Source: Spirochaetota bacterium
GTDB taxonomy: Bacteria; Spirochaetota; Brevinematia; DTOW01
Length of the DNA stretch: 64,000 nucleotides
Direction: 5' to 3'
NCBI GenBank assembly: GCA_025061835.1
Contig: JANXAC010000001.1
Coordinates: 140,684 to 204,683, forward strand
Shown: in pieces, positions 2,651-4,174 of the stretch
Layout: each line of letters opens with the position of its first letter
Numbering within the stretch: the stretch's first letter is position 1
Position numbers and translations under genes: made by a program
Notes under the pieces: model-generated
What the model saw: the letters and a program-made list of their open reading frames with translations, nothing else
The model's database searches: none
What the model was told of the DNA's origin: nothing

Positions 2651-4174
2651 ATGATAAACCAAAGGATGCGTAAAAGTCAAATAGAATTCATCTCCATCAA
2701 TTTCAAATCCTTGTTGATAAAGGATATAGAAGTTCTTATTTACAACCTTAAGCGATTTATTGACACATACAGTGAGATTGGAACCGTTTCACAACAAACA
2801 GTTCATCTGATAAGAATCAAGGCACTAAAAATTTCGTCTATCGTTAGGTCAGTTCATAAACTTCATAATATCTACATATTGAAAAAATTCTATGTATATA
2901 CCTACCAGTTAGCGAAATCTTTTGGTAAGATAAGAGATATGGACACTATGATAGGACTACTCAACAATGAAAAATCACCAAGGTCGCTAGTAAAAGATTT
3001 CTCTAACAAAAGGCACAGATACATGAGAGAAACTTATCATAAGATCTCAAAAGTTATGGATAAATATGTGGATACAGTTAATGCTTTTCTAGATGAGATT
3101 AGTAATCCAAAATATATCTTACAATTCAAGGATATTTACAAAATATACAAAATAATAACTAACGAGTATCAGTTTGCAAAATTGTCTTTTATGCTAGAGC
3201 CAAGTTATGAACTTTTCAATAGAGTCAGAGCAAAAGTTAAAAATATGAAGTATGCTTTTTGGCTTCTGAAGGTTTTTCTTTCAATGTATTCGGATAGTAA
3301 CCTTTTCAAAGAATCAGAAGATAATCTAAGGTTTGTAAATGATTTTCAGAAAAGCCTAGGATATTTTAGGGATGTGATAACATTAGTAGGTATTCTATCA
3401 AAAACCAGTTTGAGGGTCTCAAGGAAGAAAGATTTTGTTGAGTCTTTTCTCAACAACAGGAAGAATATATGGAAGGATACGATATCTAACTTCAAGGAGA
3501 GACACTTAAGACTAGACTATAGAATAAACAACATACACAGAAGGTTAAACGATATAGACATAGTCTTCCACCCTGTTGAGCAAGATAGGTATAATAGAAT
3601 ATTAGGCTATATTGAAGAGTTTGTGGTGGCAAATGGTGGTGAGATTGAAAAGTCAAAGAAGATGTCAGAGATTGCTGTTGGAATATACAGAAAATTTGAT
3701 AAGTTTAACTTTATAGTTTATGAACCAGTTGAAGAGTTTATAATAAAGGCTTCATCTTTAATACACGACCTAGGTAAGAACATATCTCCTGATGTATACC
3801 ATAAAGCATCTATGGAAGCATTTGCAAACGCTGAAATACATGAAATAAAGACAAAAGAAAAACTTCTGATAGCAATTGTCACTAGATACCACACTAGGTC
3901 AATACCGAAATACTCTCACAAGTGGTATACCAACCTAAAGGATCATGATAAAATGTTGGTCAACAAACTTGCTGGATTTGTTAGGATAGCCTTTGCAATC
4001 TCAAAGATGACTAATTTCAGTGCTGAATTAGCTGATGTAGAATATAATAAGGATAGTATAGATATAATTTTATGTTGTAGTGAAGAACCTAAGTCAGTTT
4101 TATTAGATGAAATTGACAAAGTGATATTAGAAAAGATTACAGGTGTTCCAATAAATGTTTTGATAAAAAATTGA
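2651..4174 (+). CDS. CHAD-domain protein fused to a Ppx/GppA-like HD domain
   Basis: A 507-residue protein. Residues about 20-290 form an alpha-helical, lysine/arginine-rich CHAD module with its two-fold repeat: VHLIRIKALKISSIVRSVH with GKIRDMDTM, then RVRAKVKNMKYAFW with LGYFRDVI. Residues about 310-480 resemble the HD domain at the C-terminus of exopolyphosphatases: LIHDLGKNIS (about 372), YHKASMEA, then RYHTRSIPK. CHAD domains bind polyphosphate. The HD module is known in Ppx, but the ASKHA phosphatase domain is absent. A role in polyphosphate sensing or hydrolysis is inference. It is a single gene, ending one base before the convergent ribH stop. Confidence 0.75.
   Translation: MINQRMRKSQIEFISINFKSLLIKDIEVLIYNLKRFIDTYSEIGTVSQQTVHLIRIKALKISSIVRSVHKLHNIYILKKFYVYTYQLAKSFGKIRDMDTMIGLLNNEKSPRSLVKDFSNKRHRYMRETYHKISKVMDKYVDTVNAFLDEISNPKYILQFKDIYKIYKIITNEYQFAKLSFMLEPSYELFNRVRAKVKNMKYAFWLLKVFLSMYSDSNLFKESEDNLRFVNDFQKSLGYFRDVITLVGILSKTSLRVSRKKDFVESFLNNRKNIWKDTISNFKERHLRLDYRINNIHRRLNDIDIVFHPVEQDRYNRILGYIEEFVVANGGEIEKSKKMSEIAVGIYRKFDKFNFIVYEPVEEFIIKASSLIHDLGKNISPDVYHKASMEAFANAEIHEIKTKEKLLIAIVTRYHTRSIPKYSHKWYTNLKDHDKMLVNKLAGFVRIAFAISKMTNFSAELADVEYNKDSIDIILCCSEEPKSVLLDEIDKVILEKITGVPINVLIKN

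Follow-up and report, generated by a model that had tools for sequence, protein, structure and literature searches.

Can the C-terminal half of an exopolyphosphatase serve as a polyphosphate clamp in its own right? A natural test is offered by a gene in a 64,000-nucleotide stretch of genomic DNA from a member of the Spirochaetota (this whole stretch is hereafter referred to as the window), whose product combines in one chain two modules that grip polyphosphate elsewhere, with no cutting domain. An initial sequence-only reading recognized in this protein a CHAD domain joined to an exopolyphosphatase-type HD domain in the absence of the catalytic ASKHA domain and proposed that it could be either a polyphosphate sensor or an HD-type phosphohydrolase. 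The domain part of that reading was borne out by the match to the Pfam family PF21447, by a CHAD profile built for the host's phylum and by profile–profile comparison, all described below; its functional part fared less well.

Domain architecture of the fusion

The open reading frame begins with an ATG codon, has exactly the boundaries first described and encodes a 507-aa protein (P0001) that consists of a divergent CHAD domain (approximately residues 33–305) and, downstream of it, the entire C-terminal half of Ppx with its domains III and IV (residues 306–507):

2651..4174, + strand: gene for the CHAD::Ppx-domain III/IV fusion, 507 aa (ORF and translation)
2747..3565, + strand: divergent CHAD domain, approximately residues 33–305, basic (profile matches, pI)
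3566..4171, + strand: C-terminal half of Ppx/GppA, comprising the HD domain III and the small domain IV, residues 306–507 (PF21447, PDB, model/Foldseek)

A Pfam search of the protein returned PF21447 and one sub-threshold HD match, with nothing else above the cut-off; the ASKHA catalytic domain (PF02541) was not found.

The assignment of residues 306–507 to the C-terminal half of Ppx is secure. Residues 332–475 match Pfam Ppx-GppA_III (PF21447) with E = 1.3e-9 and 38.6 bits against a curated cut-off of 27.3 bits, a significant match to the Ppx HD family to which the sequence-only reading had referred this part, and its best solved relatives are exopolyphosphatases (PDB, E = 1.6e-9). When residues 306–507 were modelled alone (pLDDT 75.7, pTM 0.79), the 26 best Foldseek matches of the model were all Ppx/GppA proteins, separated by a clear gap from the next match, which identifies the stretch as the whole Ppx C-terminal half, domains III and IV. 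The fusion shares with Ppx/GppA proteins the fold of these two domains and the conserved RYHxxS.PK.SH motif, but has CHAD in place of their catalytic N-terminal ASKHA half. Overall, this half of the protein is not basic (pI 6.4), in contrast to residues 1–305 (pI 9.9).

The Pfam CHAD model (PF05235) gave no match over its cut-off for P0001 or elsewhere in the host genome, and its best score among the relatives of P0001 was E = 0.0047. An HMM constructed from six CHAD proteins of the host's phylum, on the other hand, covered most of the domain both in P0001 (E = 2e-6) and in the fusion protein L005 (E = 4e-10); full-length family members scored from E = 4e-10 to 1e-5, with the best unrelated ORF at approximately 0.2. 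Profile–profile comparison (hhalign) of the N-terminal half of the fusion with CHAD gave a probability of 83.5% (E = 8e-6). Judged by these comparisons, the N-terminal half is homologous to accepted CHAD domains along the length of the domain. A search of solved structures with the CHAD profile produced no match. The CHAD fold comprises two four-helix bundles; the full-length AlphaFold model, built from two aligned sequences, was all-helical in the CHAD half but had a pLDDT of 46 and weak Foldseek matches. In its basic character, its profile match over most of the domain and its two-repeat pattern (H..R...RD and R...K..KY...RD), the fusion resembles CHAD proteins (PF05235; phosins), from which it differs in being too divergent for the Pfam model and in its partner domain, the C-terminal half of Ppx; about half of CHAD proteins have a TTM/CYTH domain at the N-terminus instead.

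The conserved residues of the two repeats are located as follows:

2804..2815, + strand: CHAD repeat 1, H52..R55, equivalents of the polyP-binding His253/Arg256 of CtCHAD (alignments, hhalign, PMC6537752)
2933..2938, + strand: CHAD repeat 1, R95-D96, RD motif, corresponding to Arg296 of CtCHAD (alignments, hhalign, PMC6537752)
3227..3253, + strand: CHAD repeat 2, R193...K197..K200-Y201, corresponding to Arg418/Tyr419 of CtCHAD (alignments, hhalign, PMC6537752)
3368..3373, + strand: CHAD repeat 2, R240-D241, RD motif (translation, alignment)

Among 13 columns that are invariant across nine CHAD proteins of the phylum, with the placement partly read by eye, P0001 has identical residues in ten (H52, R55, R95, D96, R193, K197, Y201, Q233, G237 and D241); the other three hold K200, a conservative replacement of Arg, L59 in place of Arg, and N190 in place of the His of repeat 2. 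By alignment, the conserved basic polyP-contacting residues are present in both repeats, and the two RD motifs pointed out from the sequence, R95-D96 and R240-D241, proved to be real and conserved. P0001 retains the equivalents of His253, Arg256, Arg296 and Tyr419 of CtCHAD; polyphosphate binding by CtCHAD and SsCHAD is reduced or lost when sets of residues that include the counterparts of H52, R55, R95 and K200/Y201 are mutated together (PMC6537752). Arg260 of CtCHAD, a tested polyP-contacting arginine, corresponds to L59 of P0001, which is adjoined by K60; this position is occupied by arginine in both CtCHAD and SsCHAD (PMC6537752).

Distribution and conservation

As to which lineages share this architecture, a question raised along with the sequence-only reading, a survey that covered the host's phylum found the fusion only in the host's own family: it was present in all five sampled genomes, which represent two genera, as full-length or near-full-length matches, and was not found in the 388 other genomes of the phylum. 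Plasmid searches returned ordinary Ppx/GppA genes only. The frame is kept in the sampled family genomes at 50–74% protein identity, which argues against both a chance ORF and a chimera of the assembly, and the HD domains of the fusions form a single clade in the HD tree (support 100/100). The convergently oriented neighbour, ribH, is the same in all five genomes, whereas the upstream neighbours differ. Upstream in the window, positions 848–1981 encode a protein that matches TIGR03492 (lipid-A-disaccharide synthase-related) with E = 9.5e-46, below the curated cut-off.

We consider it most unlikely that the gene is a relic, devoid of present function, of a polyphosphate system that is being lost. 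The remainder of the known pathway is indeed missing (see below), but the gene is intact in G004 and in each of the three assemblies with a completeness of 95% or more; in G002 it is split into two contig-edge pieces. Furthermore, 211 of the 507 residues (42%) are invariant across the two genera, and strongly conserved blocks are found at residues 101–120, 241–260 and 401–420.

Among the open-access papers searched, we found none that describes the combination of CHAD with Ppx domains III/IV, an absence that does not amount to proof of novelty. As far as these tools reach, the fusion is real and undescribed, a new combination of components that are already known.

The HD metal site

The HD pocket was compared in an alignment of six fusion rows with 44 Ppx-type sequences. 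The positions concerned are:

3650..3652, + strand: K334, position of the first HD metal ligand His, lost (alignment)
3764..3769, + strand: H372-D373, HD dyad, retained (alignment)
3884..3892, + strand: R412-Y413-H414 of the conserved RYHxxS.PK.SH motif, retained (alignment, conservation)
3992..3994, + strand: F448, position of the last HD metal ligand Asp, lost (alignment)

The first ligand His (position 334) is lost in all six fusion rows, being replaced by Lys in five and by Asn in one, and the last ligand Asp (position 448) is Phe in all six. The pocket is thus not devoid of all its metal ligands: it retains the HD dyad but has lost the first His and the last Asp. The fusion rows also keep P419 and H423, and H384 is kept in five of the six (Tyr in L005). 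Most HD domains of the same Ppx-type family elsewhere in the phylum keep the ligand positions that are lost in the fusions. In the alignment, E. coli Ppx, likewise devoid of the first ligand His, has Gln at this position and HE in place of HD.

With two of the four ligands of the HD superfamily set (H...HD...D) replaced in every fusion protein, a standard HD hydrolase function appears unlikely, which disfavours the phosphohydrolase option of the initial interpretation. That the fusion nevertheless acts as an HD-type phosphohydrolase, for which CHAD would deliver the substrate to an altered pocket using H372, D373, H384, H414 and H423, seems to us quite improbable. Such an activity would be in line with the retention of the dyad and of three further histidines and with the high conservation of the RYHTRSIPKYSHKWYT stretch, which is among the most conserved in the protein (16 of the 20 residues in 401–420); an active ancestor is also plausible because stand-alone HD domains coupled to CHAD elsewhere in the phylum keep the full ligand set. 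However, neither the first His nor the last Asp is found in any of the fusions, H384 is replaced in L005, and in Ppx enzymes catalysis does not lie with the HD domain.

Related gene pairs, polyphosphate genes and the predicted role

Three other genomes of the phylum (G058, G081 and G185) carry a CHAD gene that precedes a stand-alone Ppx-III HD gene and overlaps its beginning. Depending on the start codon, the overlap is 8–95 bases in G058 and 20–77 bases in G081; it is 29 bases in G185. Both domains are Pfam-confirmed for the pairs of G058 and G185, and those of G081 were found by genome searches. A PPK1 gene is located close to the pair in G081 and G185, unlike in the fusion's family, where PPK1 was not detected. 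The fusion matches these pairs in domain content and domain order, although in one gene instead of two and without the metal ligands that the HD of the pair keeps. Given this shared order and the nearby PPK1, the fusion resembles the products of a polyphosphate-tied gene pair joined in one chain, and it helps in turn to annotate the overlapping genes as one functional unit.

The HD tree, in which the CHAD-coupled HD of G058 adjoins those of the fusions, weakly favours an origin of the fusion from such a gene pair. We do not claim a common origin with the G058 pair, as the support is only 86/89, the branches are long and the CHAD tree leaves the source of the fusion's CHAD without resolution. 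At the G081 and G185 loci (L086, G081:C62; L087, G185:C30), a metallophosphoesterase gene adjoins the overlapping genes together with PPK1, and the stand-alone HD, with its full ligand set, may be an active hydrolase.

In the five genomes of the host's family (assemblies 82–96% complete), profile searches detected neither PPK1 nor PPK2 over the cut-off, no over-cut-off copy of the Ppx catalytic domain (PF02541) and no RelA/SpoT. A role related to (p)ppGpp was set aside because of the latter result. Three related families of the same class (f2, f3 and f4) mostly have PPK1 adjoining a full Ppx. Two others (f1 and f5) are also without PPK1 and over-cut-off Ppx, and the RelA/SpoT domain was not found in any of the 17 class members sampled besides the host; across the class, alarmone and polyphosphate genes seem to have been lost widely. 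With none of PPK1, PPK2 and Ppx detected in the family, the presumed ligand of the fusion has no known source, and a polyphosphate pool that the protein might sense is not evident.

The fusion is probably a non-catalytic, two-module binder of polyphosphate or a similar polyanion. In studied relatives, the basic groove of CHAD binds polyphosphate, and domains III/IV of E. coli Ppx are a polyphosphate-binding part that is separable from the catalytic ASKHA half. In the fusion, the CHAD groove and Ppx domains III/IV would hold one chain together, and the protein would store, shield or localize this chain, not cut it. The use of the C-terminal domain of E. coli Ppx as a polyP probe and stain (PMC13193609) provides a precedent for binding without catalysis by this domain. 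Such a binder fits better than an enzyme, and also better than the polyphosphate sensor proposed initially, which is possible but has to be set against the lack of any detected polyphosphate enzyme in the family. The initial interpretation stands, then, for the identities of the domains, is disfavoured for the phosphohydrolase and holds for the sensor only as the poorer fit.

It is possible, if rather unlikely, that the fusion has been repurposed for another polyanion, such as RNA, a nucleotide or a phosphorylated metabolite, because the lineage stopped making polyphosphate. The family is without known polyP enzymes or RelA/SpoT, and its CHAD domain has drifted beyond the range of Pfam and carries conserved basic loops specific to the family, EKSPRSLVKDFS and SKTSLRVSRKKDF, all of which agree with repurposing; yet the key CHAD residues are mostly retained, and the CHAD domains studied bound no nucleic acids (PMC6537752).

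For the binder that we prefer, retention in genomes without detectable PPK1, PPK2 or Ppx raises the question of whether polyphosphate is present, and made by what, or whether CHAD binds another ligand. What makes the fusion interesting is the kinase that is missing: the protein is either a gripping protein that has been orphaned or a hint of phosphate-chain chemistry not yet known. We offer only tentatively the suggestion that the fusion, as a conserved polyphosphate handler, may signal an unrecognized route for making polyphosphate or an unrecognized linear polyanion.

Elsewhere in the phylum, unusually long open frames were seen around PPK1 (1219 aa, G028:C110:32750-33067) and around Ppx-III (994 aa in G320:C73 and 851 aa in G379:C19), which are possible further fusions.
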